From: Cellulosimicrobium sp. Marseille-Q4280
Lineage (GTDB): Bacteria > Actinomycetota > Actinomycetes > Actinomycetales > Cellulomonadaceae
Assembly (NCBI RefSeq): GCF_943181405.1
Contig: NZ_CALPBY010000002.1
Span: 670,920-734,919, forward strand
Length of the DNA stretch: 64,000 nt
Reading direction: 5' to 3'
Within the stretch, counting starts at the first letter, position 1, and every line of letters starts with the position of its first letter. The notes below the pieces were generated by a model. That model did not search any database. It was not told the origin of the DNA and saw only the letters and a program-made list of their open reading frames with translations. This document shows, one piece after another, positions 46,109 to 63,725 of the stretch. The position numbers and the translations under genes were made by a program.

Positions 46109-46843
46109 TCAGCGGCTGACGGGCATGAGGTCCACGGGCTCGCCGGCGACGAGTCGTGCGAGCAGGTCGAGGTCGACCAGCTCGAGGGACGGCGTGCGGC
46201 TCAGGCCGGGAGCCGGTTCGACCGGGACCACCGCCTCGACGCCGAGCGTCGCGGCGCCCGAGGCGAGCGCGGACGCGATCCCCGCCGGCGAGTCCTCGAT
46301 CGCGACGCAGCGCGCGACGTCGACGCCCAGGCGCTCCGCCGCGAGCAGGTACGGCTCCGGGTCGGGCTTGCCGCGCTCGACCTCGTCCCCGCACACGAGC
46401 ACCTGGAACGCGTCCGCCGGCGCGAGCGCCGCGACGGGTTCCGCGAGCTCGCGGTAGGACATCGTCACGAGAGCGCACGGGACGCCCGCCTCGCGCAGCG
46501 ACCCCAGCAGCTCGCGCGCGCCCGGCTGCCACGGCACCTCGACGCGGACCTGGTCGATCACCCGGCCGATGAGGAACTGCACGATCTCCTCCACGGGCAG
46601 GTCGACGCCGCCGCGCTCGCGGATGATCTGCGCCGAGGTGAGCAGCGGGTTGCCGACGAGGGACATCGCGTCCTCATGGGTCCAGGTGCCGCCGTGCGCG
46701 TCCACGAGCTCGTGCTCCGCCGCGATCCAGTACGGCTCGGTGTCGACGAGCGTGCCGTCCATGTCCCACAGCACGGCGGCGGGCAGACCCTCAACTGGTG
46801 CGGCGCCCTGACCTGCAGAAACGTCGTTCAACGAGAGGGTCAA
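46109..46843 (-). CDS. HAD-superfamily hydrolase with island-supplied start
   Basis: The 244-residue protein has HAD motif I DMDGTLVDTE near residues 28-37, motif II VTMSYRE, motif III lysine in ERGKPDPEPY and motif IV AIEDSPAG. This is the beta-phosphoglucomutase-like phosphatase subgroup; the substrate is unknown. The start is TTG at 46843, seven bases after AGGAG. The first ~19 residues (to about GLPAAVLWD) derive from DNA inside the proposed island. The native start appears to have been left at 63725. Expression may therefore now depend on island sequences. Confidence 0.85.
   Translation of the reverse strand: MTLSLNDVSAGQGAAPVEGLPAAVLWDMDGTLVDTEPYWIAAEHELVDAHGGTWTHEDAMSLVGNPLLTSAQIIRERGGVDLPVEEIVQFLIGRVIDQVRVEVPWQPGARELLGSLREAGVPCALVTMSYRELAEPVAALAPADAFQVLVCGDEVERGKPDPEPYLLAAERLGVDVARCVAIEDSPAGIASALASGAATLGVEAVVPVEPAPGLSRTPSLELVDLDLLARLVAGEPVDLMPVSR
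46758..46771. repeat. Attachment-site core, left (attL)
   Basis: TCCATGTCCCACAG is identical to 63682-63695. It lies in codons for L-W-D-M of the HAD gene. Flanking bases on the outer side of each copy still code for the same peptide with synonymous changes, as expected if the element carries its own version of the target gene's 5' end. Confidence 0.65.
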
Positions 46844-46861
46844 CGTGTGCTCCTGTAGTCG

Positions 46862-46884
46862 CGGTGCATCAAACGGTGCATCAA
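46862..46884. repeat. Paired direct repeats, probable integrase arm sites (left)
   Basis: CGGTGCATCAA occurs at 46862 and again at 46874, a period of 12. Matching copies are near the right end (63534, 63546). The pair lies 91 bases from the core, between the HAD start and the excisionase gene. Paired arm-type sites with such spacing are typical of tyrosine integrases. Confidence 0.55.
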
Positions 46885-46958
46885 GCGAGGGTATCGGCAA
46901 CGCCCGGCATAGAGGTCGGGCAATCTGGACATCGGCGTTCGCCGCACATATACGACCC

Positions 46959-47189
46959 ATGACGAACAACACCATCGCGCCCAAGATCAGCTCCTGGGCG
47001 GAGCTGTGGGCGACCGACCGCGAGGTCCTCAACGTAGGCGAGGTCGCCTCACTCTTAGGCGTCGATCCGAGAACCGTCTCCTCGTCTGTCCACGCCGGCG
47101 AACTGCCCGGCACCCGCCTCGGGCGCCGACTGCTCATCCCTCGCGCTCCGCTGCTCGACCGCCTGGGCGTCAGGGCACCCGCGGCATGA
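46959..47189 (+). CDS. Excisionase-like MerR/helix-turn-helix protein
   Basis: The 76-residue protein has LNVGEVASLLGVDPRTVSSS followed by GELPGTRLGRRLLIPRAPLL, the HTH_17/excisionase pattern. Its stop overlaps the integrase start as ATGA, the normal xis-int order. TATACG at 46949-46954 lies 4 bases before the ATG, with CTGGAC 18 bases further up. If this is the promoter, the message would be nearly leaderless. Confidence 0.85.
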   Translation: MTNNTIAPKISSWAELWATDREVLNVGEVASLLGVDPRTVSSSVHAGELPGTRLGRRLLIPRAPLLDRLGVRAPAA

Positions 47190-48470
47190 GCGCCGAGGAG
47201 AAGATGTCGCGACGCAGGTACGGCGAAGGATCGATCTCCCTACCGGACTCGCACCGGTGCGCAGCGCTACCGCATCCAGTGGTACGAGCCGCGCGACTTC
47301 AAGAACCCGGAACGCGGTAAGCACGCCGTGGGCAGGGCCGGCTTCCTGACTGAGGACGAGGCGCGCCTAGAGCTCAAACGCCGCCAGGTCGCCCTTGCCG
47401 ATGGCAAAGCCAGGCCGGCATCGGGCGACAAGTTGACTTTCGACACGTACGCGCGGAGGTGGCTGGCCGGTCACTCCGTCGGAGAAAACACGCGCGCGTA
47501 CGTCTCGCGGGTCATCGACGACGTCGAGTCGCATATTGGACGCCTGCGCCTGGCCGACATCCTCCCCAGCGACCTCGCGGCGACGTACCGCGCCTTGGAG
47601 GCAGGTGTCGGCCGCGCATCCACAACGAAGGGCGGCGGTCCTCTCGCGCAGTCAACCGTCGCGCGCTACGCGGGCTGGCTCGTCACCATCTTCAACGCCG
47701 CGATCGAGGATGGCTTGATTGCCAAGAACCCAGCCTCAAACCGGCGCTCGGGAAGACCCAAGGGCTCAGTGGCCAAGCGCAAGAAGCCGATCGTGGTTTG
47801 GACCCCCGAGCAGGCCAGGCACTTCTGCTCCTGGGCGAGCGCCACGCAACAGCACTGGGCGGACGCGTACGAGATCCTCGTCCGCACGGGCCTGCGCATC
47901 GGCGAGCTGTTCGGACTCGAGTGGCCGGACATCGACCTGTCCCGCGCGACGTTGACGGTCGCTCGACAGGTGCGGACAGTTCCCGGGAACGGTGAAGATC
48001 GGCAGCGGCTCGCTCCGCCCAAGGGCGGGCGAATCCGCACGATCCGCCTGGACAACACGTCGGTACGCATCTTGCAGGAGCTCCGCCGCAAACAGATGTC
48101 AGCTCAGCAGAGCCCTCGTCTCACGCGTCACGCGGTGTTCATCGACCGCCCAGGGGCGAAGGCCACCAAGGCTGCCTTTCTGCACGCTCTGCACCGCGCT
48201 CAGGACCAATACGCGGCAGCGCACCCAGACGTGATCTTGCCGCGGGTGTGCACGCACGACCTGCGGCACACCCACGCGTCGCTGCTGCTCAGCGCGAACA
48301 TCGACATCAAAGTCATTCAGGAACGTCTCGGACACGCCACTGCCAAGCTCACACTCGACACCTACGCGCACCTCATGCCGAACGCGCACCACACCGCGAT
48401 GAGCAAGCTGAGCAACATGCTTGACGCTCTGCCGGGGAGTGAAGACGTGGCAGGCCGTGAGGTCACCTAG
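47186..48470 (+). pseudogene. Tyrosine integrase with N-terminal frameshift
   Basis: The start ATGAGCGCC overlaps the excisionase gene. The frame reads MSRRRYGEGSIS and then is lost at a CCC run (47238-47240). Removing one C restores ...GSISYRTRTGAQRYRIQW and joins the long downstream frame. The rest is an intact phage-type integrase: core-binding domain from ~47430, catalytic Arg in RTGLRIGELFGLEW, HDLRHTHASLLLS with His and Arg, LGHATAKLTLDTYAHLM with His and Tyr. A GTG at 47328 could make a shortened protein without the N-terminal arm-binding domain. It may be a real mutation or a sequence error. Confidence 0.85.
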
Positions 48471-48839
48471 CGGCTAGACACCACGCCGGACTGTCTTGTC
48501 AGAAGACCGCGCCAGGTGCCGATCGCCAACGCTCGTCGGAGCTGCGTCTGACCACTCAAATCACTCCCCCACATGCGCTCTGCGTACTTGCACCGGACAA
48601 ATTCCTCGCAGCGCCGGGTCTATGAACTTCCCGCCCGTGTCGGCGATGCGTCGTCTGGCGCAAGAGCGTGACGTCGAGCCGGGAGGCGTATTGGTGCGTG
48701 GCGTTCCAGCGCGTAGTACCCGTTCGTCGCGGCTGTGGGTAACCGAACTAAGGTTGCGTCTCACGCGAGCGACGTAGTTAGCAACGAGAGGCCCCTATGA
48801 CCAGCATCCCTCCGCTTCACGTCCGCCACGTCTTCTCGC
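48471..48839. other. Gap without a convincing gene
   Basis: This stretch is less GC-rich than the core genome. Open frames at 48496-48777 (+) and 48561-48764 (-) have no recognisable features and no good ribosome-binding site. An ATG at 48797 opens only a short frame. Confidence 0.5.
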
Positions 48840-49085
48840 GTGCGTCCGCGGCTCGAGGCCGACCTGACCACCGCGCGCGGCGATCTGCTCCTTGAGCGCG
48901 ACCTGATCCTGATCGTCACGATGCTCGGCGACCGGGTCCTCACCCCGCTCGCCGTGATTGCTGTGCAGCAGGAGCTGCGCACCCAGGTGAGCGCCGGGAT
49001 GATCACCAGCCCCGAGCACCTGATCGACGAGGCGATGACATCCATTAGCCTCCGCTCAGTGATGCTGGGCGAGCCGCTGGCATGA
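48840..49085 (+). CDS. Small hypothetical protein upstream of DUF2637
   Basis: The GTG-started frame encodes 81 residues: RLEADLTTARGDLLLERDL, MLGDRVLTPLAVIAVQQEL and SPEHLIDEAMTS. Composition is protein-like. Its stop overlaps the DUF2637 start as ATGA, which supports translation. No ribosome-binding site is clear, so it may have lost its 5' end. Function unknown; probably part of a former plasmid-type transfer module. Confidence 0.5.
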   Translation: MRPRLEADLTTARGDLLLERDLILIVTMLGDRVLTPLAVIAVQQELRTQVSAGMITSPEHLIDEAMTSISLRSVMLGEPLA

Positions 49086-49330
49086 GCCGGCGCGCACGTT
49101 GCGCGCCGCCAGTCACGCGCGCGGCGCTCACCAGCGCGCTGGTCGGCACCGCGGTGATCGCCGTCGGCGCGTTCTGGCTGGGCTTCTACGCGCTCACCGA
49201 CCTGGCGCTGCGCTCCGACGTGCCGCGCGAGCAGGCGTGGGTGTGGCCGCTCATCGTCGACGGCGTGATCATCGTGTCGACCGTCGCGGTGTTCGCGCTG
49301 CGCGGTCACTCGCGAGCGATCACGGCCTAA
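49082..49330 (+). pseudogene. DUF2637 protein, 3' end cut by IS481 element
   Basis: The 82 residues show the DUF2637 pattern: membrane helices with GAFWLGFYALTDLALRSDV and AWVWPLIVDGVIIVSTVAV. DUF2637 proteins occur on actinomycete plasmids and integrative elements and are often compared with spread proteins. The frame stops two bases before the left inverted repeat of the IS481-type element; full-size members continue with a cytoplasmic domain, so this copy is probably truncated. Confidence 0.7.
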
Positions 49331-50322
49331 CTGTGATGTCCAGGGAGGTTGGTCAGCCGGCTGACCGGTGGCTGGTTGCCGATCGCGCTGTGGAGCCTGT
49401 GGTGATTGTAGAAGTGGAGCCATCCGGGTAGCGCGGCGCGGCGTTCGGTCTCTGAGGCGTAGAAGCGGGCGTAGGCCCACCCGTCGGCGAGCGTGCGGTG
49501 GAAGCGTTCGATCTTGCCGTTGGTCTGCGGGCGGTAGGGCCGGGTTCGCTTGTGCTTGATCCCCAGCCTTGTGCAGGCGTCGCGCCAGGCGTGGGAGCGG
49601 TAGGCCGACCCGTTGTCGGACAGCACCTGCTCGACGTGCACCCCGCGTGCGGCGAACCAGGTCACGGCGCGTTCGAGCACGTCGACCGCGGTTGCGCCCT
49701 TCTCGTCGGACCGGATCTCGGCGTAGGCGAGTCGGGAGTGGTCGTCGATCACGGTGTGCAGGTAGGCGGTGCCGATGCTCGGGTTGCCCTTGGCCGTGCG
49801 GCCTGTGCGTAGAGCGGTTGCTGCTTGGTTCCGGTAGCCCTGTTGCCGCCCGACGTAGCGCCACCCGCCCCCGTCGGGGATATTGCCGAACTTGGTGACG
49901 TCGACATGGATCAGTGAGCCGGGATGGTCATGCTCGTAGCGGCGCAATGGTTCGCCGGTGACCCGATCGATCCGGGTGAGCCGGTTGATCCGGCACCGCA
50001 CCAGCACCGCATGGACCGTGGAGGCGGGCATGTGCAGGCGCCCGGCTATCTGGACCGGTCCCAACCGGTGTCGCCACCGCAGCCGCACGACCTGCTTGAC
50101 CAGATGTTGCGGGGTGCGGGTCGGGCTGTGGTGCGGGCGCGAACTGCGATCGGCCATCCCGGCCACGCCCTCGGTGCGATATCGCTCGGCCCACTTCCTC
50201 GCGGTGCGGGCCGAGACCATGAACATCTTCGCCGCGGCCGTGTAGGTCCAGCCGGACTCGACGACCAGCCGCGCCAGCCGCAGTCGTGTTCTCGGGGTGA
50301 GCAGGGCGTTAGCGTGTGACAC
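49327..50322 (-). CDS. IS481-family transposase
   Basis: The GTG-started protein (SHANALLTPRTRLRLARLVV) has 331 residues. An N-terminal helix-turn-helix (YTAAAKMFMVSARTARKWAERY) is followed by the rve DDE domain: Asp in HVDVTKFGNI, Asp in VLSDNGSAYRS and Glu in NGKIERFHRT. The frame runs through the inverted repeat, and its TAG stop is formed by flanking DNA outside the element. It appears intact and could be active. Confidence 0.88.
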   Translation of the reverse strand: MSHANALLTPRTRLRLARLVVESGWTYTAAAKMFMVSARTARKWAERYRTEGVAGMADRSSRPHHSPTRTPQHLVKQVVRLRWRHRLGPVQIAGRLHMPASTVHAVLVRCRINRLTRIDRVTGEPLRRYEHDHPGSLIHVDVTKFGNIPDGGGWRYVGRQQGYRNQAATALRTGRTAKGNPSIGTAYLHTVIDDHSRLAYAEIRSDEKGATAVDVLERAVTWFAARGVHVEQVLSDNGSAYRSHAWRDACTRLGIKHKRTRPYRPQTNGKIERFHRTLADGWAYARFYASETERRAALPGWLHFYNHHRLHSAIGNQPPVSRLTNLPGHHS

Positions 50323-50447
50323 GAAGGCCTCCGGCGGGTGGAAGTGGTTCCTCGACAGCTCCACTTCACAACCGGAGGCCTTCGTCATCCGGTAACCCGC
50401 CCCCGTGTCGTCATCACGGGATCCGGACAACCTCCCTGGACATCACA
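49332..50447. mobile_element. IS481-family insertion sequence
   Basis: The 1116-base element is bounded by perfect 20-base inverted repeats, TGTGATGTCCAGGGAGGTTG at 49332-49351 and its complement at 50428-50447. Ends in TGT...ACA are usual for the family. No clear target duplication is present (CTAAC left, ACTAG right). It separates a truncated DUF2637 gene from a truncated acetyltransferase gene, so the insertion probably came with a deletion. Confidence 0.85.
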
Positions 50448-50452
50448 ACTAG

Positions 50453-50650
50453 GCGCGAGGCGAGGGCGTGGGTTCGGCGCTGCTCGCCGACGCCGTCGCC
50501 CGCCATGGCGTGACCCGAGTGGACGTGAACGAGCAGAACCCTGGCGCGCTCGGCTTCTACCTACACCGCGGCTTCCAGGAGGCGGGACGCAGCCCGCTCG
50601 ACTCCGACGGTCGGCCCTACCCGATCGTGCACCTGCGCCTACCCGTCTGA
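50453..50650 (+). pseudogene. GNAT acetyltransferase remnant
   Basis: About 65 residues remain: ARGEGVGSALLADAVA is the acetyl-CoA motif (RGxGxG), and NPGALGFYLHRGFQEAG is the usual GNAT C-terminal half. The N-terminal half is missing at the IS481 right end. No start codon is supported. Confidence 0.7.
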
Positions 50651-50664
50651 CACGTGCGACTTAG

Positions 50665-52139
50665 TACTACAACTGTAGATTGTGACCGTGACCTGCGGTG
50701 ATGCCGTGAGACGGGGTGGACGCAGCGCGGCTACCGCGTCAGGGTTCGTTGCTTGTGTGGAACATATCGCCCGTGGCGGTGGCCGCGGAACACAAGGTAG
50801 CGGCCAGTAGGTGGGAAGCGGAGTTCGCGTCTGCGGTGGGACGGGTATCGGGCCGGTTCGCCCGGCGTGAGCCGCTCGCCCACGCGCGCGATCTGGTTGC
50901 CGGGCTGGTCGCGCCGTTGGAGCGCAAGAACTGTTGGATGATCGCCGAGCACGCCGGTCACGCGAGCCCGCACGGGCTGCAGCACCTGCTCGGGCGGGCG
51001 GTCTGGGACGCCGACGGTGTGCGGGACGACGTTCGCGAGTACGTGCTGGACCATCTCGCCGACCCGGGTGCGGTGCTCGTGATCGATGAGACGGGGGACC
51101 TGAAGAAGGGCACCGCGACGGTCGGGGTGCAGCGTCAGTACACCGGCACCGCGGGACGGATCGAGAACGCGCAGGTTGCGGTCTACCTGACCTACGCCGC
51201 GCCGGGCGGGCACGCGTTCATCGACCGGGCGTTGTATCTGCCGAAGTCCTGGTGCGACGACGCTGGTAGGCGCCGGCGGGCTGGCGTCCCGGACTATGTG
51301 CGGTTCGCGACCAAGCCCGCGTTGGCCGCGGGGATGATCGAGCGCGCCGTCACGGCTGGGACCCCGGCGTCGTAGGTCGCCGACGACGAAGTCTACGGCG
51401 GCGACGCGAAGCTGCGCGCCGCTATCCGCGGCCACGGCATGGGGTATGTCATGCAGATCGCCGCCACCCGACAGGTGGCCTCCCGGGCCGGGAAGCTGCC
51501 CGTGCAGGATCTGGCAGCGAGCATGCCCGCTGCGGTGTGGCAGACATACTCCGCCGGCGAGGGATCCAAGGGGCCGCGCTACTACTCCTGGGCCCTGATC
51601 AGCATCGAGCCCGAACCCGAGGCCCCCGACGCCGCCACTGACGAGAACGAGCCAGCCACGGGCGGTGAGCAGATGCTGCTGGTGCTGGTGCGTCGCAACG
51701 ACGCCACCGGCGAGCTCGCCTATCACCTGTGCCACGCCCCGAGGCCGGTGCCGATGCGCACCCTGGTGCGCGTGGCCGGGCAGCGGTGGCGCATCGAGGA
51801 GAACTTCCAGGCGGCCAAGGGCATGGTCGGGCTCGACCAACACCAGGTCCGACGCTGGGACTCCTGGCACCGGTGGACCACCCTGGCCATGCTCGCCCAC
51901 GCGTTCCTGACCGTCCTAGCCGCCACGATCCGTGACGCCGAGAACGACCAGCACGGCCTGATCGCGATCACCGTTGCCGAAGCACGCCGCCTGTTCACCA
52001 CCGTCGACGTCGCCACCCGCGATCTCCATAACGTCCTGGCCTGGTCCAGCTGGCGAAGACGACACCAAGCCCGAGCCCGCACCGCGCACTACCACCGTCG
52101 CATCACCGCAGGTCACGGTCACGATCTACGGCTGTAGTA
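50665..52139. mobile_element. IS701-family insertion sequence
   Basis: Imperfect inverted repeats of about 37 bases (50665-50702 and 52101-52139; three mismatches) bound a 1475-base element. The flanks are TTAG on the left and CTAG on the right, each fitting the YTAR target pattern reported for this family but differing by one base. The transposase has an internal stop, so this copy is probably inactive. Confidence 0.8.
50716..52137 (+). pseudogene. IS701-family transposase with in-frame TAG
   Basis: The frame encodes a DDE transposase: VLVIDETGDLKKGTATVGVQ (first Asp), then the second-aspartate region V.DDEVYGGDAKLR and RIEENFQAAKGMVGLDQHQVR with the Glu. A TAG at 51373-51375 interrupts PAS-VADDEVYG, where relatives usually have tryptophan (TGG). 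One base change explains it. Reading resumes in the same frame to 52137. The exact start is uncertain (GTG codons at 50716 and 50752). Confidence 0.8.
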
Positions 52140-52275
52140 CTAGCCATCGGCAGCCCCGTCAACGGCAAGCCGATAGCCTCTGATATGTCACATTGATCGG
52201 ATTTGGCTGCCGTGCTTGTGGGTCAGCGCCCTGGGCTCAACTGTCGTTGTCCCTCCTGCCTGGCATGCTGCACAC

Positions 52276-53994
52276 GTGGACCAACTGCTGGGCATCGGCG
52301 TCGAAGGCTATCGATCGTTCAACCACGGAGCGGCACAGTATCTCGCGCCCATGGCGAAGGTTAATCTCGTCGCGGGCCAGAACAACGCCGGGAAGTCGAA
52401 CCTGCTGCGAGTCATCGCCGGTTCACTGCCCGGAGCGCCGCGTGAGTCGCAGTCGCACCCCCTCGACGTGCCGGTGGGCACAGGGGCCGATGGCGGCCCT
52501 ACCTGCGTGTCGATTGCGGTGCCGACAGCTGCGTTCGCTGAGGCTCTCCGAGCCCGCGTCGGGTCCGGGTTCGATACGAGTTATGTCGCTGCGATGGCTG
52601 TTCGGCTTCAAGAACTGCTGGGGCTGCCGGGACTCGAGGAGTTCCTCTGGTACCGGTACGTCTTCAAGAATCCGGGGCTCGAGCTCGACACCGAGTGGAT
52701 CCTCGAGCTTGATCGGGCTCAGACGAGCAGCCATCGGGACGACTTTCGCAACCTGTCGTCCGCAATTCTCAACAGCTCTGGCGGCCCCTCGCACGCAGAC
52801 CTCGAACGAGTCCTCAAGACCATGGACCCCGTCGGCGCCCTCCCCCGCGCCGCCACAATTTCTGCGTATCGTCGAATCGAGGCCGGCGACCAAGAGGCGT
52901 CCCTCGACGGTTCCGGTCTCATCCATCGCCTCGCTGACCTCGAACGGCCAGAGGCAGTCGGCCACGACGAAGAGCGCGCGAAGTTCGATGCGATCCAAGA
53001 GTTCACACGAAGCGTCCTCGACGATCCCGGACTCACGCTGACAGTGCCCACGACCCGAACCACTATCAACGTCCGCCTTTCGGAGGGCGGAGTACTCCCC
53101 CTCGAGCACATGGGCACGGGCATCCACCAGGTCGTGATCCTTGCCGCGGCCGCGACCCTACTAACGGACACCGTCGTGTGCATGGAGGAGCCCGAGATCC
53201 ATCTCCATCCGTTGCTGCAGCGCAAGCTGCTGAACTACTTGGCCCACGAGACGACGAACCAGTACGTCATCGCGACTCACTCGGCGCACATGCTCGATGC
53301 CGATGTCGCGTCGATCTTCCATCTCACCCACGAATCGCGTTCCGGTACGAGGCTCACCCGGGCAGCTACACCCGCCCAGAGGGCAGGGATCTGCGCCGAT
53401 CTCGGTTACCGCGCCTCGGATCTTGTGCAGGCGAACGCGGTCGTCTGGGTCGAGGGCCCCTCTGACCGGATCTACATCCGCAGGTGGATCGAACTCCTCG
53501 ACCCGAGCCTGATCGAGGGGATCCACTACTCGATCATGTTCTACGGTGGCAGGCTCCTCAATCACCTCACGGCCGACGACCCCGATGTCGATGAGTTCAT
53601 CTCCCTGCGCAGACTTAACCGCCAGGTTGCGATCCTGATCGACTCGGACCGGAGCAGGCGTGGAGCGCGGCTCAACGCGACGAAGAAGCGTGTCGTCGAC
53701 GAACTCTCGACCGAAGGGTTCGCCTGGGTGACGCACGGCTACACGATCGAGAACTACGTGCCCTTCCAGGACTTCCAAGCGGCGGTCACGGCACGGCACG
53801 GTGGCGCGCACCTCGAAACGGTAGATCGGTGGGGCAACCCTCTAGCTGCGCCGGCCCTCACGGGTGTCAAGCAGCCCGACAAGCTTGGAATCGCCCGCGG
53901 CGTTGCCGAGCGCTGGAAGCCGGACACCACGTGGCCGTATGACCTGCGAGACAAGGTCCGCGGTCTGGTCGACTTCATCCGCGCCGCGAACTGA
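52276..53994 (+). CDS. OLD-like ATP-dependent nuclease (AAA ATPase plus TOPRIM)
   Basis: The 572-residue protein starts at GTG (DQLLGIGVEGYRSF). Walker A is AGQNNAGKSN near residues 34-43, Walker B VVCMEEPEIHLHP near 295-308 and the switch is ATHSAHML. A C-terminal TOPRIM domain follows with the acidic motif VWVEGPSDRIYI and ILIDSDRS. The domain order matches OLD-family class 1 nucleases, which cut DNA and often act against phages. No UvrD-like GajB helicase is next to it, so it is not Gabija. It follows the IS701 element directly. The longer frame to 52216 lacks support. Confidence 0.82.
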   Translation: MDQLLGIGVEGYRSFNHGAAQYLAPMAKVNLVAGQNNAGKSNLLRVIAGSLPGAPRESQSHPLDVPVGTGADGGPTCVSIAVPTAAFAEALRARVGSGFDTSYVAAMAVRLQELLGLPGLEEFLWYRYVFKNPGLELDTEWILELDRAQTSSHRDDFRNLSSAILNSSGGPSHADLERVLKTMDPVGALPRAATISAYRRIEAGDQEASLDGSGLIHRLADLERPEAVGHDEERAKFDAIQEFTRSVLDDPGLTLTVPTTRTTINVRLSEGGVLPLEHMGTGIHQVVILAAAATLLTDTVVCMEEPEIHLHPLLQRKLLNYLAHETTNQYVIATHSAHMLDADVASIFHLTHESRSGTRLTRAATPAQRAGICADLGYRASDLVQANAVVWVEGPSDRIYIRRWIELLDPSLIEGIHYSIMFYGGRLLNHLTADDPDVDEFISLRRLNRQVAILIDSDRSRRGARLNATKKRVVDELSTEGFAWVTHGYTIENYVPFQDFQAAVTARHGGAHLETVDRWGNPLAAPALTGVKQPDKLGIARGVAERWKPDTTWPYDLRDKVRGLVDFIRAAN

Positions 53995-54039
53995 CCAACA
54001 CCTGGTGCTGGTGGTACTGGCCATACCCTCACCCGCCCA

Positions 54040-54400
54040 AGCGCAGCGACGCTCGCCGGCGACTGCCCCGCTCCCGGAGCCGGTTCAGGCGGACGTCGCG
54101 GCCCTGCCCGTCGAGCCGTCCACGATGGAGGAGTTCTCCGGCATTGCCGGCGCTTCAACACGGAGATCGCTGCGATGGAGAATGCGAGCCGCCGGGCGTT
54201 CCTCGTCGCCCGTGCGCATTCTTTTTTCAACGGCACGCTGGAGCAGATGAAGTGGTCGGTGCTGCCGCTCGCGATCCCGGATGGCGGGGCGTTCGACTCG
54301 ACCATCGCTCCGTCGCGTGAGGGCGCGCTGGCGCTGGCTGCTCCGATGTTCGCGGCATACCCGGACGTGCCTGTGATCGGCCGATCACCCGCTCTTGGGC
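54040..54400 (+). pseudogene. Decayed hypothetical gene in the OLD-DUF5677 gap
   Basis: Two protein-like pieces lie in different frames: PVQADVAALPVEPSTMEEFSG up to 54148, then RFNTEIAAMENASRRAF with FFNGTLEQMKWSVLPLAIPDG and LAAPMFAAYPDVPVIG. Inserting one base near 54150 joins them. No start codon is convincing, and the family is not recognised. The piece could be a remnant of a gene that once lay between its neighbours. Confidence 0.35.
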
Positions 54401-55375: not shown

Positions 55376-55636
55376 TCAGTGGCCAACTCGCGCCGTACAG
55401 CTGCCAGCGGCGCTTCGCGCAACGCACGTCGACAGCGGCACTGTGGCCGCCCTCGTCGTGGCGGTCAGCATCCCCGGGTAGTCCTTCGCGATACATCCGG
55501 GGAGCCCGAGGCCGACGTCTGCGGCGACCTCGAACTCGATCGTGGCAGCGTCGCCGCCTTCGGCCTGGATCTCGTCGTGGTGAGCCTCGATGTACGCGGC
55601 CGCCTCGGCGTCGCTCATGGCGTCGGTGTTGCCCAT
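55376..55636 (-). CDS. Small protein, possible degenerate RHH antitoxin
   Basis: An excellent ribosome-binding site (GGAGGGCTGGCG) precedes the ATG of this 86-residue protein. The N-terminus SDAEAAAYIEAHHDEIQAEG and the C-terminal RAATVPLSTCVARSAAG recall actinobacterial ribbon-helix-helix antitoxins, which have an acidic YxxHHDE-type start and a VPLSxYVRxAA helix. The expected central SLRLP strand is replaced by LGLPGCIAKDYPG, so the copy may be altered. No toxin gene is recognisable beside it. Confidence 0.45.
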   Translation of the reverse strand: MGNTDAMSDAEAAAYIEAHHDEIQAEGGDAATIEFEVAADVGLGLPGCIAKDYPGMLTATTRAATVPLSTCVARSAAGSCTARVGH

Positions 55637-55756
55637 CGCCAGCCCTCCCCCTCCTCGGCCGCCGGGATGGAGCCGGCCCTCCGCGCGCATCGATGGCTCG
55701 GTCTGGCAGCGTACGCCGCGCCGAGTCGGTCGCACGGGCCGCAGTGTGCGTCGCTG

Positions 55757-57151: not shown

Positions 57152-57369
57152 GAGCGTCAGTATGGCCGCACGGCAGACCCAGCGCCGACCCGCACCTCGC
57201 GAGACCCGCCGCTACCCCGGGGGAGGCGTCCGGTTCCAAGGTAGTGGGACGCCGTCGGGCCGGCGCCGGCCCGAAGGCGACACGCCGCGCGGACCGTGTC
57301 CTAGAAGTCATCCCACAAGTCGCTGTCCCGGAACTCGCGCTGTCCCCCACTTCCGGTACGGTCCACCGC

Positions 57370-57962
57370 ATGCTCCTGGGGTACGGACGGATCTCGACCG
57401 AGAAGCAGGACCTCGCGCGCCAGCTGGACGCGCTCGCCGGCGCCGGGGTCTCTCCCGAGCACACCTACGTCGACCGCAAGTCCGGGGCGACCACCGACCG
57501 CGAGGGCCTGCAGCAGATGCTCGCCTACGCCCGCTCCGGCGACGTCATCGTCGTGCACACCCTCGACCGGCTCGGGCGCAGCGTGCGCGACACGCTCAAC
57601 ATGCTCCACGACCTCGGCGAGCGGGGCATCGGCCTGCGCAACCTCGCCGACCCGATCCGGTCGACACGAGCGACCCCGACGACCCGATGGCCCAGCTCTC
57701 GGTCGTGATGCTCGCGCTGTTCGCCCAGATGGAGCGCACCTACATGCTCGAGCGCCTCTCCCACGCCCGCGAGGTCGCCGCGGCTGCCGGCAAGCAGGTC
57801 GGGCGTCCGCGCACCGTCACCGACGAGCAGATCCGCTACGCCACCCACCTGCGCGACGACGAGGGCATGACCCTCGCGGAGATCGCCGCGGAGACCGGCA
57901 TCCCGCGCACGACGCTGAACCGCCACCTGCCCGCCCGTCCTGAGGGCGCCGCCTCTGCCTGA
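57370..57962 (+). pseudogene. Serine recombinase (resolvase) with frameshift
   Basis: MLLGYGRISTEKQDLARQLD has the catalytic serine at residue 9; TLDRLGRSVRDTLNML carries the active-site arginines. One G is missing at 57660. Restoring it joins ...LADPIR to VDTSDPDDPMAQLSVVM, MERTYMLERL and the C-terminal helix-turn-helix MTLAEIAAETGIPRTTLNRH. Total length (~197 residues) equals small resolvases. Two copies of CGCTGTCCC at 57322 and 57341 lie just upstream and could be part of a res site. Confidence 0.82.
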
Positions 57963-57990
57963 GGCGCGCTCGCCCTGGGGCGCCGGTGGC

Positions 57991-58119
57991 TCAGGGGAAC
58001 AGCGTCGAGAGGAACGGCAGCGCGATGCTGACCGCTGCCGCCGCGGCGAGGATCACGACGACCGTGCCGAGGATCCACCGCAGCTCACGCCGTCGTGCTT
58101 GCCTCGACCGCTTCGCCAT
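57991..58119 (-). CDS. Short single-span membrane protein
   Basis: The 42-residue protein begins AKRSRQARRREL and continues with one hydrophobic helix (WILGTVVVILAAAAAVSIAL). GGGAGGG lies 8 bases before the ATG. Basic start plus single helix is plausible for a real small protein. Function unknown. Confidence 0.55.
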   Translation of the reverse strand: MAKRSRQARRRELRWILGTVVVILAAAAAVSIALPFLSTLFP

Positions 58120-58243
58120 GCCGCCACCCTCCCACGCGCGACGCACGTCGTTGCGGTCACCGATCAGCACGGGCTCGCTGTCGCCTCCTGCTCCACCCAC
58201 CATCTGCCCCCGCAGGTCAGTCCCCGACGCCAGGATGGGCACC

Positions 58244-58969
58244 ATGTCCTCCACGCACCCCTTGCCGCCCGCCCTTGCCGACCTGGTCTCCGCTCGCGCT
58301 GGCGACGAGCCGGCCGCAGTCCGCTTCCGCCCCCGCACCTGGGACGCCGCACTGGCCGACGTGGAGCCGGCCATCCGCGCCGTGCTCCGCGACGACGCGA
58401 TCACCGGCGAGAGCGTCCGCGTGAGCGGCGACCGCGTCGTCGACCGCGACGCCGTGCTCAAGGTCGCCACGAGCACCGATCTCGACGACGACAGCGGCTT
58501 GCTCCGAGCGTTCCTGCTGGCCCAGGTGTGGGGCTCCGGCACGTCCGGCGGCCGCACGCTCCGGCACACCGCCACCGCCTTCGCCCACCGCGAACAGTTG
58601 GTCGCTGCCCTGCGCACCAGCGCCGACCGCCTGCGCACCGCCGCTGAGACCAGGGCGCTGGCCGACGCCTACGCCGGCTGGTCCTGCCCGGGCGTCGGGC
58701 CATCATTCTTCACCAAGTGGTTCACCTTCGCCGGGCGGCGCGAGGGCCGCGCCTGGCAGCCGCTCATCCTGGACCAGCGGGTGTACCGGTCGCTCAACGG
58801 CCCGCTCGACGTCCGGCTGGTCGACCTCGCCGGACACCCAGCACGATCCGCTCGCTACCGGGCGTACGTCGACGCCATGCACGCCTGGTCCGCCGAGCTT
58901 GCCGTCGCCGCCGATCGGCTGGAGTGGATCCTGTTCGTCGACAACGGAAGAGGCGTCACGAGGTCGTAG
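58244..58969 (+). CDS. OGG-fold (8-oxoguanine glycosylase-like) protein
   Basis: The 241-residue protein contains CPGVGPSFFTKWFTFAGR and PLILDQRVYRSLN, like the helix-hairpin-helix plus LDxxV region of the OGG-fold protein family. The preceding part (LLRAFLLAQVWGSG, ALADAYAGW) is helical. A classical OGG1 Lys-Asp pair is not evident; the lysine in FTKWF and aspartate in LILDQ are candidates. The role is unknown, but members occur in defence-type gene groups. AGGA upstream favours the ATG at 58244 over 58235. Confidence 0.55.
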   Translation: MSSTHPLPPALADLVSARAGDEPAAVRFRPRTWDAALADVEPAIRAVLRDDAITGESVRVSGDRVVDRDAVLKVATSTDLDDDSGLLRAFLLAQVWGSGTSGGRTLRHTATAFAHREQLVAALRTSADRLRTAAETRALADAYAGWSCPGVGPSFFTKWFTFAGRREGRAWQPLILDQRVYRSLNGPLDVRLVDLAGHPARSARYRAYVDAMHAWSAELAVAADRLEWILFVDNGRGVTRS

Positions 58970-59021
58970 GAACTGATCACGGACCTCCTCTGCCTCGATC
59001 GGGCGCTTAGACGTCTCGCCG

Positions 59022-59239
59022 CGTTCGTCCAACGGCCCGTTGGACGAACGGCCCCGGGCTCCGACGCCGAGCGGCACGGCTTCGCGGGAATCGTCCAGCG
59101 GCCTGCTGGACGAACACCCGGCCACGATGCGGGGCCGTCGGAGCGCCTCACGGCAATCGGCCAACAGCCTGTTGGCCGAGCACCTGGCCGCGGCGTCGAC
59201 GAGCTCGCGCCGTTCGTCCACCAGGCCGGTGGACGAACG
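59022..59239. repeat. Array of four hairpins with covarying stems
   Basis: Inverted repeats at 59022-59050 (13-base arms), 59091-59113 (9), 59157-59179 (10) and 59211-59239 (12) each enclose a GCC-containing loop of 3-5 bases. Arms are related (CGTTCGTCCAACG, TCGTCCAGC, TCGGCCAACA, CGTTCGTCCACC) but differ at several positions, and each change is matched on the opposite arm. Spacing is 54-69 bases. Open frames crossing the array are only weakly protein-like. It lies in a 376-base gap after the OGG-fold gene. Confidence 0.75.
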
Positions 59240-59283
59240 CCGCGGCGCACAGGCACAGGCGCTGCGCTGCGACGCCCCCACGG

Positions 59284-59315
59284 GCTCATGGCTTCATGCG
59301 TTCATGCATTCATGA
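59284..59315. repeat. Four tandem 8-base repeats (TTCATG type)
   Basis: GCTCATGG, CTTCATGC, GTTCATGC and ATTCATGA follow one another without spacing, 31 bases before a small membrane-protein gene and 45 bases after the hairpin array. The regular 8-base period suggests a DNA-binding site for a multimeric protein. Confidence 0.6.
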
Positions 59316-59345
59316 AAACCTGATCCGTCCGCACATCCGTGGTGC

Positions 59346-59567
59346 ATGGACATCGACACCACGGCGGTCGCGCGCCGCCCTCTTCGCTTCAAGCCCCTCG
59401 CCGCGCTCGCGTGGGTCGGGCTGCTCGCCTCGCTGATGTGGTGGGTGCACGACACCGTCGACAGCGGCTGGCCGATCGTGGCCACCGCGGTGTGCACGCT
59501 CGCTGTGCTCAAGGTCGTCGACGACGCCTGGGTCGTGCGCGAGCAGCGTCGCCTCGCGCGCCGCTGA
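59346..59567 (+). CDS. Small two-helix membrane protein
   Basis: The 73-residue protein has a basic start, two hydrophobic segments (PLAALAWVGLLASLMWWV and WPIVATAVCTLAVLKVV) and a charged tail (REQRRLARR). The composition is that of a real membrane protein. Nothing identifies its function. It lies just after the 8-base repeats, which may control it. Confidence 0.6.
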   Translation: MDIDTTAVARRPLRFKPLAALAWVGLLASLMWWVHDTVDSGWPIVATAVCTLAVLKVVDDAWVVREQRRLARR

Positions 59568-59570
59568 GCC

Positions 59571-60139
59571 TCAGTCGGCCGCCAGCGCCATCGCGACGAA
59601 CGGCGCCGGGTCCACCTCGGCCCCGCGCCGGGCCAGCACCGTGTCCGTGCTGATCCGCAGCCGGCGCCCGTCCTCGAGCACGAGCAGCGCCGGCCACGCC
59701 ACCGCCCGGCGCGCCTCACCATCCCCGACAAACCGGGTCGGGCGGTCGCGCGCGACCAGCAGCTTCTCCACCACGCCCCAGCGCGCGTTGCCGTACCGCT
59801 CGTACAGCGGCGAGACGACATCGCCCCGCTTCACCTGCCACGCCTTCGGCCGGGCCGCGGCGGTGCGCTCCATGTAGAACTCCGCGACCGCGTCGGCGAC
59901 CGGCCCGCGCGGGTACCGGCGCCCGACGCCGTTGCACGCGAAGCAGCGTGAGTGCCCGGCGCCGCGGTTGTACGCCTACCTGCCCGACCCTCGCAGCGTC
60001 CGCACAGCACGGTCGGGAAGCCGTACTCGTCCGGCTCGGTCTCCCCTGCCCGAGCGACGGCGAGTTCGACGTCGGTCTCACCGCGCGCTTGCTCGGCGAA
60101 CCGACTGCCGCTGCGCGCCCTCCGGCGCTCGGGCAGGGG
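59571..60139 (-). pseudogene. Zinc-finger protein gene with frameshift
   Basis: The 3' part (VKRGDVVSPLYERYGNARWG, WPALLVLEDGRRLRIST) is intact to the stop at 59571. Upstream in the same frame is CFACNGVGRRYPRG. In another frame, TVLCGRCEG follows ETEPDEYGF. Together they form a DnaJ-like pair of CxxCxG fingers, separated by a one-base loss between 59973 and 59989. No start codon is found before the TAA at 60140. A 100-residue product from the ATG at 59873 is also possible. Function unknown. Confidence 0.5.
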
Positions 60140-60315
60140 TTAGCGGGCACGTGCGCAGCGCGGTCGGTGCCCTGCAGGGCACCAACTCGGAGGGCAGTGA
60201 CGGCTTTCTTGGGCGGCGAGCGCGGATGTCATGGCTGCCAGATGTGCGCCAGCTGGTCATCGGCCGCCGGCCCGGCGCTCAGCGCGAACGTGCCGGGGCC
60301 GCACATCTACCCGCC

Positions 60316-61014
60316 ATGAGCACCACCGCCACCATCTCCTTCCGCCGCCCGGTCGCCTGGACCGACGAGCACGGCGAGCACTTCGGCATCACGATCGGCG
60401 ACGACGTCGACGGCCTGACCCGCGTGCGCGAGTACGCCTCGGGCACCGAGCGGACGGTGCCGGCCGCTTCCTTGCGCCCGGGCAAGAGCCCGCAGCGGTT
60501 CAAGGTCGACCTGTGCGCCGAGCTCGCCGACGGCTGGTGGGGCCGCGGCTCCAAGGCGGTGCGGCGTCGGCTGCTGGCCGAGGCCGAAGCGCTGCTGGGC
60601 GATCTCGAGACGTCCGCGGTCTCGATCGCCCCGACGACCGAGGGCGGGCTGGTCCTGGAGTGGACCGACGCGCACGAGTGCGGCTGCAGCGCCGACCTCG
60701 ACGTCGACGGATCGATGTACCTCGTGATCGCCGACGGCGACCTCGTGCTCGCCCAGGCACGCTCGCTCTACGACCGGGCGACCCTGGCCGCGTTCGTCCG
60801 CGGCGAGTCCATGCCCTCCGCCGCCGCCCACGCGGCCCGAGGGCCGGAGCGCCCGGCTCGGGGCTACTGCTTACCGCGCCGGATGTGGCGCAGGAGACGA
60901 ACACGCCGTACGCGCCGGATCAGCCACAGCAGGGCGAACGATCCGACGGCAAGGCCGAGCGGCAGGGTCGCGACGATGAGCTCGGCGTCCGGGTTGGTTC
61001 CTGCCACGGCCTGA
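60316..61014 (+). CDS. Hypothetical protein, converging on the Mrr-type gene
   Basis: The ATG opens a 232-residue frame. Residues 1-180 are protein-like (SFRRPVAWTDEHGEHFGITI, LCAELADGWWGRGSKAV, LEWTDAHECGCSADLDVDG). The last ~50 are Arg-rich and overlap the facing gene by 151 bases, so the natural stop may have been lost. Family not recognised. Confidence 0.55.
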   Translation: MSTTATISFRRPVAWTDEHGEHFGITIGDDVDGLTRVREYASGTERTVPAASLRPGKSPQRFKVDLCAELADGWWGRGSKAVRRRLLAEAEALLGDLETSAVSIAPTTEGGLVLEWTDAHECGCSADLDVDGSMYLVIADGDLVLAQARSLYDRATLAAFVRGESMPSAAAHAARGPERPARGYCLPRRMWRRRRTRRTRRISHSRANDPTARPSGRVATMSSASGLVPATA

Positions 61015-61622
61015 CACGAGATGCCGACAGCCCCGATCACGCCGACCACCCCGATGACCAGCAGCGCCTTCTCGAGCCAGTTGGCGAGCTGGCGCATGGA
61101 CTCGGCCGTCTCGCGCCTCCGCTCCTCCGGGCTCAGCCCTTGGAGACGCTCCCGCTCCGCGCGGCTGGCCTCGGCCGCATCTCGGAACGCAACTCGAAAG
61201 GTGCCGCCAGTCGACGAGCTCGACGGCGCAGCAGGCTCCTCGGCGCGGATGCGCTCGACGAGGGCGCGGGCGTGGCCGTTGACGGGCGTGACCTCCCCAC
61301 GCACCGAGTAGATGAACAGGGCCATGCCCATCCGGTCGGCGTACTCCTGACCGGCGACGGAGTACCCGCTGGCCGAGTAGTAGGCGAGGGCGACGTCTTG
61401 CCGCTCGCTCGCGCCGGCGAGCCGCTGCAGCAGCGGGCGACCGACCACCGCGGCGATCTGCTTCACCTCGGCGAGCACCTGGCTGCCGCGGACGTCGACG
61501 CCGCCGTCGCCGCTGGCGGCCGTCACCTTCGCGTCGGCGAACCCAATCTGGCGCAGGTGCCAGGCGGCACATTCCTCCGCCTCGCGCGGACTCGCGATGT
61601 GCTCCCCGGGCTGCCACGTCAC
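60864..61622 (-). CDS. Mrr-type restriction endonuclease with membrane anchor
   Basis: The 252-residue protein starts at GTG (TWQPGEHIASPREAEECAAW). Residues ~10-110 form an Mrr_cat fold: GDGGVDVRG with the catalytic aspartate and VLAEVKQ with Glu-x-Lys, then VGRPLLQRLAGAS. Two membrane helices lie at about 186-207 and 217-237, followed by an Arg-rich tail. The nuclease would face the cytoplasm at the membrane. Membrane-tethered Mrr-like proteins occur among defence genes. The substrate (possibly modified DNA) is inferred. Confidence 0.75.
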   Translation of the reverse strand: MTWQPGEHIASPREAEECAAWHLRQIGFADAKVTAASGDGGVDVRGSQVLAEVKQIAAVVGRPLLQRLAGASERQDVALAYYSASGYSVAGQEYADRMGMALFIYSVRGEVTPVNGHARALVERIRAEEPAAPSSSSTGGTFRVAFRDAAEASRAERERLQGLSPEERRRETAESMRQLANWLEKALLVIGVVGVIGAVGISCQAVAGTNPDAELIVATLPLGLAVGSFALLWLIRRVRRVRLLRHIRRGKQ

Positions 61623-61703
61623 GCCAGGAGGGTACCGGCGGCCTGAGCCGCAGCGGGCCGCTCTCAGGGTCGGCGCGCCGAGCGGCGTCCGCCAGCCCCG
61701 ACA

Positions 61704-61901
61704 TCAGCGCGGCCGGTCGGCCACGGGCTGAGCACCACGTCCGCGCCGCGGCGTGCCCGTGCGGTCCAGGCTGCGACGCACGGCCGTTTGCGTGCGGCCG
61801 GTGAGCTCGCCGATCTCGCGAAGGGACCGCCCCGCCGCGTACTGCTCGGCGACGAAGGAGTCGAACCGGCGCAGCTGGAACGGGTTGTACCCGTTCTTCA
61901 C
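61704..61901 (-). CDS. Small helix-turn-helix protein
   Basis: The frame contains FDSFVAEQYAAGRSLREIGE and LTGRTQTAVRRSLDRTGTPR, a clear helix-turn-helix of the resolvase C-terminal or Hin-like type. A GTG at 61901 gives 65 residues; the frame stays open to 62054. There is no strong ribosome-binding site. It is divergent from the broken gene at 62041 and could regulate it. Confidence 0.5.
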   Translation of the reverse strand: MKNGYNPFQLRRFDSFVAEQYAAGRSLREIGELTGRTQTAVRRSLDRTGTPRRGRGAQPVADRPR

Positions 61902-62040
61902 GTCGCCCGGAATTGCGGCAGCACCTCGAGCGTCGGGCGCGACGGGTACGACATGGGCGCGAGGGTAGACGACCCGGGGCGCGACGGACCTTCCCGGTAC
62001 CGTCGCAGTGCCAGTTCGACCGGGACCGCAGGAGGGGCGC

Positions 62041-62266
62041 ATGGCCGCAGTCAAGAGGGCGCACCTCGACCAGGTGCGTCGCCGCTACGGCGTCCCCCGC
62101 GCGCCGCGGTGCGCGGATCACGTTCGACGGCCGACCCGGCACCATCGTCTCGGCGAGGATGGGCGGGCTCATGCTTGGCGTCCGGTTCGACGACGCCGCG
62201 GACGTCGTCGAGCAGGTCCACCCCACGTACCTTGTGCAGTACGACGGCGAGCCGCAGGCAGGCTGA
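62041..62266 (+). pseudogene. Small hypothetical gene with frameshift
   Basis: An ATG behind GCAGGAGGGGC begins AAVKRAHLDQVRRRYGVPRA. Near 62107 the reading moves to another frame: GARITFDGRPGTIVSARMGG, LMLGVRFDDAADVVEQVHPT and YLVQYDGEPQAG. One missing base explains it. The product would be about 75 residues with a small beta-barrel-like C-terminal part. Family not recognised. Confidence 0.55.
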
Positions 62267-62309
62267 CCGACCGGTTCGTGAACGCGGCTCGCGAGGGCGG
62301 CCACAGCGC

Positions 62310-63197
62310 CTAGGGCGTCGTCAGCTTCGCCAGACGCACACCGAGCTTGCTCGTCGCCCTCTGCCCCGCCGGAAGGTGCGCTAGGTACCGCTCGAGGACC
62401 TCGATCTCGCCGTCCTTGTCGCCCATCTTGCGCAGGACGATCGCCGTCTGCTCGGTGTACCACGGCGCGGGCGCCCCGCCGATCAGGTCGCCCTCGGCAC
62501 CTTGAATCGCGGCGTAGCAGAGCTCGAGCGCCTCATCGAGGCGCCCTTCACGCTTGAGCTGCTTGATGGGCTCGACGAGCTCGAGGTAGTGGACGCCTTG
62601 GACCATCCCGGACTGGAACTGCGCGGCGCGGTGCCCGCCGCCCGCGACCGCGTCCGCGACCATCTCTCGGGTGCGGGCGTGGTCGGCCGCAGCCCGCTCC
62701 TTGGTCGTCATCGGGGGGAGGTTCTCGGCCGAGTGGGCCCAGCGGGCGGGCGGCTCGTCGAGCCACACCCACGCCTCGACCCGCAGCTTGCCCTCGGACT
62801 CTGCCCAGGCCACCTGCACCGGAACAGCCTGTGCGGCCCCCACGTCAAGCGTGGTCGTCCGGGCGTAGCCAGAGGTTAGCGCGCCGATGTGCTCGCCGTC
62901 GACGAGCACCGCGACCGCGTTCGGGTCGACCGGGTTAGTCGGGTCGCGCTGCAGCACCGCGGTGTCTTCGAGGACGCCGTGCCCACCGAGGCCGCGCCGA
63001 CGCACGAGCCCTTGTGCTCCCGCGGCGGCGAACGTCGTCGTGCCGGCCACTTTCGTCAGCGGGCTCAACCCCAGCGAGATCGAGTAGGTCACCGTCGGCT
63101 CCGGGCGGGACTGCGGCTTGGGACGCGGCGCAGGTGCGCGCTCGAGGTCGGTGCTGGGCTCGGTTCGCTTGCCGAGCAGGCGCTGGAGGAATCCCAC
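62310..63197 (-). CDS. HIRAN-like domain protein with helical C-terminus
   Basis: The 295-residue protein starts at GTG (GFLQRLLGKRTEP). The region VLQRDPTNPVDPNAVAVLVD, then GEHIGALTSGYA, follows the HIRAN pattern (L-x-R-x-P-x-NPxDxNAVxV), a domain linked with DNA binding at stalled forks. The C-terminal ~130 residues are TPR-like helices (EGRLDEALELCYAAIQGAEG, DKDGEIEVLERYLAHLP). No catalytic domain is seen. It may guide or regulate a nuclease such as the nearby Mrr-type protein. Confidence 0.65.
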   Translation of the reverse strand: MGFLQRLLGKRTEPSTDLERAPAPRPKPQSRPEPTVTYSISLGLSPLTKVAGTTTFAAAGAQGLVRRRGLGGHGVLEDTAVLQRDPTNPVDPNAVAVLVDGEHIGALTSGYARTTTLDVGAAQAVPVQVAWAESEGKLRVEAWVWLDEPPARWAHSAENLPPMTTKERAAADHARTREMVADAVAGGGHRAAQFQSGMVQGVHYLELVEPIKQLKREGRLDEALELCYAAIQGAEGDLIGGAPAPWYTEQTAIVLRKMGDKDGEIEVLERYLAHLPAGQRATSKLGVRLAKLTTP

Positions 63198-63553
63198 GGC
63201 GTGATCGTTGCACGCGCCGCCGGATGTGGGTAGCGGGTCACGGGGCGAAACCGCGCACGCCGCCGTGCGGTCAGGCGGGCGTGCGCGAGCTGGCGGGCGG
63301 GCTGGCGCTTGGCCAGCGCTTTGGCACGCACTCCGACTCGCTCGGTGACGATGGCGATGGCGATGGCGATGCTGGCCACCGAGGCGACGTCGTCGGTCTC
63401 CTGGTGGGTGACCGAGGTGTCGTAGCCCTGGCCGAGCACCGGGTCCAAAATCTCGGCCTTGCGGTGCTGGACGCGCCGCAGGTGCTCGTCGAGCGTGCCG
63501 GAGGCGATTCCCTTGGGCAGGACGAGTCCGGGCCGATGCATGATCCGATGCAT
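63089..63553 (-). CDS. Possible small ORF near the island's right end
   Basis: The first ~75 residues look protein-like (GTLDEHLRRVQHRKAEILDP, GYDTSVTHQETDDVASVAS, VTERVGVRAKALAKRQ) with an internal IAIAIAI run from the GATGGC repeat. After that the frame is Arg-rich and overlaps the start of the HIRAN gene. It may be a truncated or frameshifted gene. No family is recognised, and the start overlaps the arm-type repeats. Confidence 0.3.
   Translation of the reverse strand: MHRIMHRPGLVLPKGIASGTLDEHLRRVQHRKAEILDPVLGQGYDTSVTHQETDDVASVASIAIAIAIVTERVGVRAKALAKRQPARQLAHARLTARRRARFRPVTRYPHPAARATITPWDSSSACSASEPSPAPTSSAHLRRVPSRSPARSRR
63350..63370. repeat. GATGGC microsatellite
   Basis: GATGGC is repeated three and a half times without interruption. 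In the minus-strand frame it encodes an Ile-Ala run. Such tracts can change length by slippage. Confidence 0.6.
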
Positions 63554-63558
63554 CAAAC
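63534..63558. repeat. Paired direct repeats, probable integrase arm sites (right)
   Basis: CGATGCATGA at 63534 and CGATGCATCA at 63546 keep the 12-base period of the left pair. Bases 63546-63558 match 46862-46874 at 12 of 13 positions. They lie about 124 bases inside the right core. Confidence 0.55.
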
Positions 63559-63597
63559 CCGCGCTCCATCGCCGTGTACGGTGATGCTGCTCATTGA

Positions 63598-63611
63598 GTT
63601 CTATACAGAAC
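63598..63611. promoter_or_regulatory. Inverted repeat GTTCT-N4-AGAAC
   Basis: Perfect 5-base arms around a 4-base centre lie between the right arm sites and the attachment core. It could bind the excisionase, integrase or a host factor; this is not shown by the sequence. Confidence 0.3.
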
Positions 63612-63632
63612 GGTTGGCCGGATTCCGCGGTT

Positions 63633-63725
63633 CTATGCGTCTTCCTGCACGAAGTTGTACCGACCGAAGTGACGCTCGCCTTCCATGTCCCACAGGACTG
63701 CGGCGGGGAGCCCGTCGCGGGACAC
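63633..63725 (-). pseudogene. Severed native 5' end of the HAD-hydrolase gene
   Basis: A GTG at 63725 reads [13 protein letters not shown] and then runs into element DNA ([16 protein letters not shown], stop). [10 protein letters not shown] is the same peptide as in the intact HAD gene, with synonymous codon differences outside the 14-base core. This is what remains of the original start after integration. Confidence 0.65.
63682..63695. repeat. Attachment-site core, right (attR)
   Basis: TCCATGTCCCACAG, the same 14 bases as at 46758-46771 and in the same orientation, marks the right end of the island. Confidence 0.65.

Follow-up and report, generated by a model that had tools for sequence, protein, structure and literature searches.

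The HAD gene and its two 5′ ends

The DNA analysed here, a 64,000-nucleotide stretch of Cellulosimicrobium sp. Marseille-Q4280 that we refer to as the window (genome G000, contig C2, positions 670920–734919), reaches the end of its contig and encodes on its reverse strand a HAD-IA hydrolase (46109..46843), identified from matches to Pfam HAD_2/Hydrolase, a TIGR01509 match above cut-off and its translation. The 5′ end of this HAD gene runs into 16.9 kb of DNA lying between two exact copies of a 14-base core; within its left end are genes for an excisionase-like protein and an integrase. The features described below make it very probable that this segment is an integrative genomic island that entered the HAD gene near the start of its coding sequence and replaced that start.

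The core TCCATGTCCCACAG is found at 46758..46771 and 63682..63695 (both forward strand) and nowhere else in the window. Both copies lie in frame within codons for LPAAVLWDM, the core itself spanning those for LWDMD, and when the flanks are joined across the core a single continuous reading frame results on translation. The LWDMD codons of the presumed target site (attB) are what we take to be the first catalytic motif of the HAD hydrolase. Immediately before the core, in the sense strand, four of the six GLPAAV codons differ between the left and right copies. As it now stands, HAD reads from a TTG start (46843–46841) through 24 island-supplied codons, MTLSLNDVSAGQGAAPVEGLPAAV (46772..46843, reverse strand by translation), across the left core and into the resident body of the gene. 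Six bases before the TTG is a ribosome-binding site, AGGAG (46850..46854, reverse strand), and further out a −10-like hexamer, TACCCT (46888..46893, reverse strand), recognised by alignment with the 5′ ends of relatives; no match to a sigma-70 consensus promoter was found at the left end. An earlier sequence-only reading of this DNA holds up on all of these points: the core at both ends, the peptide encoded twice with different synonymous codons, the full HAD gene with a TTG start inside the left core and the island-borne first codons with their ribosome-binding site were among its claims.

At the other end, HAD codons read outward-in through the right core enter island DNA and stop after 16 codons. 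These displaced original 5′ codons of HAD occupy 63696..63739 (reverse strand; translation up to the base before a clpX match). After the right core the contig continues for only 305 bases, of which the final ~260, clpX-like in sequence (63740..64000, forward strand), are probably a contig-end chimera: sequence from ~63740 is matched on other contigs, near the start of C4 and at the end of C11. A first reading of clpX as the gene that natively adjoins HAD was rejected, given that two other contigs, C4 and C11, are also broken within clpX and that this place is filled by a PAC2 gene in relatives. Junk or chimeric contig ends seem to recur in this assembly (63740–64000, C4:1–165 and C9:~215090–215173), and some of its breaks can apparently be traced to clpX-type genes, of which there are at least two by reading, one on C11 beside clpP-like genes and one on C4.

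In relatives HAD is flanked by the divergent PAC2 gene, the distance between PAC2 and the HAD motif being 186 bp in locus L045. The window genome has its own PAC2 gene on contig C9 (214085–214957), which ends 216 bp further on at 215173. By eye the last 85–105 bases of C9 look like junk; the rest of the contig end can be aligned with the native L045 spacer at a score of 95, where the best of 300 shuffles reaches 36, and more weakly with the L048 spacer (49 against 43). PAC2 positions in L044 and L046–L049 were set by hand and only the L045 spacing was used here; the end points for L046–L048 share this limit. In L045 the alignment starts ~76 bases away from the core, a distance of which ~58 are accounted for by the C2 fragment, so that the ends of C2 and C9 nearly meet, and the displaced 5′ end would appear to continue on C9 beside PAC2. 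Taken alone, the ~45 bases past the right core are not significantly similar in DNA sequence to any of four native 5′ ends (best z 1.9), and the case for a displaced end therefore rests on the reading frame, the peptide, the bookkeeping of contig ends and the related genome G009, to which we now turn.

Relatives with and without the island

In 12 of 17 genomes of the genus, PAC2 and HAD lie head to head with no island, at a measured distance of 212–282 bp between PAC2 and the core; this is the uninterrupted arrangement that the sequence-only reading had proposed to look for. The GCAGGTCAG codons, which form part of the island-supplied 5′ end, occur in none of the 12. The remaining five genomes (G000, G014, G011, G009 and G002) have no PAC2 in the 1.5 kb upstream of HAD, and four of them carry the GCAGGTCAG codons. 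Across the family, these codons are found at the set distance from the core in five of 221 genomes.

A search of the same 221 genomes for the integrase (E ≤ 1e-70, eight candidates scored per genome) returned three, the window's own, G009 and G133, in each of which the gene lies beside HAD. In 396 genomes of the order only the window's own copy was recovered at E ≤ 1e-75, with four candidates scored per genome. G009 is a one-contig genome whose integrase is 54% identical to that of the window (198/366 positions); its cores, at 2977384 (left) and 2998336 (right), are 21 kb apart and the displaced peptide (..SSSVVLPDAVLWDM) is present at the far end. G133 belongs to another genus (JACXUT010000062.1, a Micrococcales metagenome-assembled genome) and shows a left end only. 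Beyond these, 15 relatives of the integrase on viral contigs share 21–30% identity with it and have no HAD motif in their stretches; matches to phages and plasmids are all below 60%, the ten listed in each set being at 27–31%; and three other relatives on genome contigs (25–27%) have no HAD motif nearby.

Putative arm sites

Both ends of the island carry paired TGCA repeats, located by motif count, that are putative integrase arm sites. The left pair consists of GTGCATCAA twice (46864..46884, forward strand), the copies at 46864 and 46876 being 12 bp apart, and the right pair of ATGCATGAT and ATGCATCAA (63536..63556, forward strand), again with a 12-bp period and 134 bp inside the right core. 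Chosen after inspection of the island ends, the motif RTGCATCAA has three occurrences in the 64 kb, where 0.11 would be expected, and all three are at the two ends. The left end of G009 has CATGCAACGAA and CGTGCAACAAC at the same spacing and that of G133 a similar pair, also 12 bp apart, whilst the right ends of the window (63536/63548) and G009 (2998211/2998223) each combine a full copy with a degenerate partner 12 bp away. Pairs with this spacing are thus found at all five readable ends (two in the window, two in G009 and the left end of G133), and none was seen in the 12 native genomes of the genus at the tolerance used. Beside the left pair lies a TANNNT hexamer common to the window, G009, G133, G011, G002 and G026: the TACCCT of the window aligns with TAGGGT in G009, G011 and G002 and with TAGAGT in G026, and TAGGGT is also present in G133.

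The hexamer-plus-TGCA module might instead be the operator of a host regulator in some lineages, which would also account for its position at the promoter and would turn the integrase-less 5′ ends described below into ordinary promoter variants. A looser search for the module in 396 genomes of the order, with the reversed pattern as control, found it in three, each time at the HAD orthologue and in a single other family; the control pattern also matched three times, and the window's own genome gave no match in this search. We consider an operator unlikely, given that the window's motif is found only at the two island ends, one of them far from the HAD start, that the right end of G009 has the same paired motif and that the arm pair was not seen, at the tolerance used, in any of the 12 native genomes of the genus. 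Three genomes of another family, f19 (loci L087, L088 and L089), have GGTCG..TGCA upstream of the HAD orthologue, which could be chance or a related promoter.

Proposed mechanism

Under the island reading, the tyrosine recombinase would have recombined the attachment site of the island (attP) with attB in the LWDMD codons of HAD. With the crossover inside the gene, the resident body on the left would now be joined to island DNA bringing the −10-like hexamer, the ribosome-binding site, the TTG and the 24 codons, and the native start and first codons would have been pushed to the right end, with the native promoter region beside PAC2. A pair of putative arm sites would lie inside each core. As the left pair falls between the shared hexamer and the start codon, HAD may be under island control, and binding of the integrase there could repress it. 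Of the interpretation offered by the sequence-only reading, insertion into the 5′ coding end, substitute codons with a ribosome-binding site and a displaced start are all borne out, and the working hydrolase and the island control that it proposed are best regarded as predictions, the latter from the layout of these sites.

Possible scars and repeated occupancy

Four genomes that lack such an integrase in the stretches examined (G011, G002, G026 and G014) have island-type 5′ ends at HAD. Their presumed starts are TTG in G011, G002 and G026 and GTG in G014, and all four have 2–3 kb of other genes between HAD and PAC2. The right core, allowing up to three mismatches, was not found in these inserts apart from one reverse-strand match in G002. 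The insert of G011 contains a HipB/HipA-like pair, named from sequence alone (L041:4182–5881, window orientation), in a place that in other genomes is occupied by an island or empty.

Outside the common codons, the 5′ end of G009 matches that of G133 with a score of 130 (best of 500 shuffles 25–28) and none of four native 5′ ends; it is also matched by those of G011 (119), G002 (61) and G026 (38), where shuffles reach at most 29, 27 and 26. The 5′ end of the window matches those of G014 (57, shuffles at most 27) and G009 (46, at most 25), with no match to that of G011 or to any of the four native 5′ ends. In a tree of HAD bodies, comprising 26 rows (25 of the 30 loci L010–L039 together with G133; L032 and L037–L039 are omitted, and L033, whose core was not located, was dropped) and with 11 of 23 inner branches open, the body of G009 falls in a group with those of seven native genomes, at a support of 85/76 that does not reach the starred level, and that of G000 has no settled place.

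We read the island-type 5′ ends of the four integrase-less genomes as scars of former islands, most safely in the case of G011, and not as the ancestral state, since these genomes have no PAC2 within 1.5 kb upstream of HAD. The sequence-only reading had held that relatives with the TTG-type start and no island would tell against it; on their face G011, G002 and G026 are such relatives, which we take to be scarred. Were the TTG-type end ancestral, the right-hand fragment would be a later partial duplicate or a foreign piece of HAD and the island would merely adjoin the gene; the window-like end of G014 and the G009-like ends of G011, G002 and G026, all with no integrase, are what such a history would leave. 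We judge it quite improbable, because the island-type codons are missing from all 12 genus genomes (of 17) that keep the HAD–PAC2 spacing intact, all four integrase-less genomes lack PAC2 next to HAD, the HAD body of G009 falls among native genomes (with moderate support) and the DNA beside PAC2 in G000 still aligns with the native spacer.

The right end of G009 offers a further clue. Outside the right core lies a hexamer-plus-arm module, ~9 bases nearer to the core than in the left ends, and this displaced end resembles the left ends of G009 and G133 (scores 40 and 45, z 8.7 and 10.8); against the 5′ ends of G011 and G026 it scores 35 and 32, no better than the best shuffle. This suggests that in G009 the 5′ end left by an older island was displaced by a newer one and, more generally, that islands have visited the same HAD gene repeatedly. 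It is possible, at rather less than even odds, that islands of a single integrase subfamily visit the HAD 5′ end time and again, their promoter and N-terminal codons staying permanently once an island decays or is replaced, and that the integrase, through its arm sites in the new 5′ leader, doubles as a regulator of HAD. If so, the control region and first codons of HAD would evolve by island turnover and the body of the gene would be inherited vertically.

A number of observations weigh against the island and its proposed history. Trustworthy sequence beyond the right core amounts to only ~45 bases before the probably chimeric contig end, so that the original HAD start claimed there by the sequence-only reading is represented by in-frame codons over that short distance. 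The xis–int pair that it described is present as an excisionase-like gene and a tyrosine recombinase, the first codons of the latter being out of frame: in this assembly the integrase reading frame is interrupted close to its beginning (47204–47330). No match to the excisionase gene was found in the stretches fetched from ten relatives, including G009. Clearly low G+C content is limited to the first half of the island. The right end of the G133 island was not found on its contig. Among 13 sampled genomes from outside the genus, six have no PAC2 beside HAD and, of these six, only G026 has island-type codons, so that a missing PAC2 is not in itself a marker of an island. With regard to serial occupancy, the 5′ end of the window scores against that of G133 only as high as the best shuffle (35) and matches neither that of G002 nor that of G026; the end of G014 matches that of the window and not those of G009 or G133, and has no recognisable arm pair; the arm pair of G002 failed the same test; and the displaced end of G009 does not match the left end of the window (score 19, z 0.5). 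A misassembly that joined the right core and its codons to the island is very improbable even with the contig ending 305 bases on in clpX-like sequence and C4 and C9 also ending in apparent junk, as the one-contig genome of G009 has the same two-ended design and arm-site spacing and the window has arm sites 134 bp inward of its right core.

Recombination genes and cargo of the island

The excisionase-like protein is a small helix-turn-helix protein encoded at 46959..47189 (forward strand), with matches to Pfam HTH_17 (38.4 bits, cut-off 27) and TIGR01764 (37.0 bits, cut-off 28.8). The main frame of the tyrosine recombinase, assigned by family match, follows at 47328..48470 (forward strand), its first ~20 codons lying in another frame from an ATG at 47204. 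The homologues in G009 and G133 are open across the equivalent of 47204–47330, and the break in the window is either a mutation or an assembly error. The G009 integrase, being open throughout, could become a new tool for site-specific integration.

The cargo region (48496..63530) was characterised by family matches of single proteins. Transposase genes lie within 49327–52137, one of the IS481 type (49327–50430, reverse strand) and one of the DDE_5 type (50716–51375, forward strand). They are followed by an OLD/GajA-like AAA ATPase (52216–53994, forward), a DUF5677 protein (54518–55318, forward), an HNH protein (55757–57151, reverse), an OGG-like protein (57986–58969, forward), an Mrr-like protein (60864–61622, reverse) and a weak HIRAN match, below cut-off (62310–63569, reverse). 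By such single-protein matches, as opposed to system rules, the cargo between 52216 and 62463 is partly defence-like (the OLD/GajA-like ATPase and the HNH, OGG-like and Mrr-like proteins). The cargo of G009 includes a weak NACHT match and a metallophosphatase; beyond the integrase of G133 there are adenylosuccinate-synthetase-like and dehydrogenase-like proteins, which may lie past the island, whose end was not found.

Eleven island proteins compared with PHROGs matched only integrase, transposase, HNH, DNA-binding/excisionase and unknown-function families, plus one marginal match of the excisionase to a terminase small subunit (E 0.0067); with no phage structural or lysis gene among the 11, the island does not look like a prophage. 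Pfam revealed no relaxase, TraB or replication gene among 18 island open reading frames and the excisionase, a set that may include non-genes and does not cover every short frame. G+C content is 72–78% in the left flank (40000–46999) and 64–73% in the island, and ARAGORN found no tRNA gene in the window, which speaks against an island of the tRNA-targeting kind.

Comparison with known systems

The island has several traits of elements that target the 5′ end of a gene and restore it: a core repeated in direct orientation, among the first codons of the target; integrase and excisionase-like genes next to one attachment site; and in-frame new 5′ codons with the displaced native end at the far side. 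The sequence-only reading had called protein-coding 5′ ends less common targets than tRNA genes; they are indeed unusual, yet documented for prfC, dusA and mutL. Insertion of SXT/R391 integrative and conjugative elements supplies prfC with new 5′ codons. In the passages of the literature drawn on here and below, these elements insert in the 5′ end of prfC by means of an element integrase with int/xis (PMC4344509), and SXT provides prfC with a new promoter (PMC8409611). The island resembles them in targeting the start of a conserved gene and differs in target, host phylum and size; unlike them, it has no conjugation gene among the island proteins scanned.

A dusA element, IMEVchUSA3, is likewise described as inserting in the 5′ end of its gene with a substitute promoter and N-terminus, and the Vibrio element is mobilised by IncC plasmids (PMC8409611); dusA-specific elements are reported from Proteobacteria (Farrugia 2015, PMC4482086). 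These differ from the island in target gene, in their proteobacterial hosts and, in the Vibrio case, in mobilisation by IncC. Likeness to the SXT/prfC and dusA elements is one of insertion design, the integrases of those systems not having been compared. SpyCI islands occupy the 5′ end of Streptococcus pyogenes mutL, where an island-borne promoter rescues the target in one strain (PMC3430984, PMC4689407) and insertion blocks mutL transcription in strain SF370 (PMC3430984). Both are 5′-end insertions, but whereas SpyCI blocks mutL in SF370, the island restores an open frame.

A small literature search turned up no prior report of islands at this HAD site (actinobacteria, Cellulomonas). The mechanism proposed here is thus already known from SXT/prfC and dusA islands, and what appears to be new is the target, the integrase subfamily and the history of scars. 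Among relatives the site is seen filled, empty, apparently scarred and apparently visited twice, which makes it possible to study what becomes in the long term of a promoter brought in by an island. An actinobacterial case, with a target that is new and an integrase subfamily that is rare, joins the few elements that rewrite the start of a gene, not its end.

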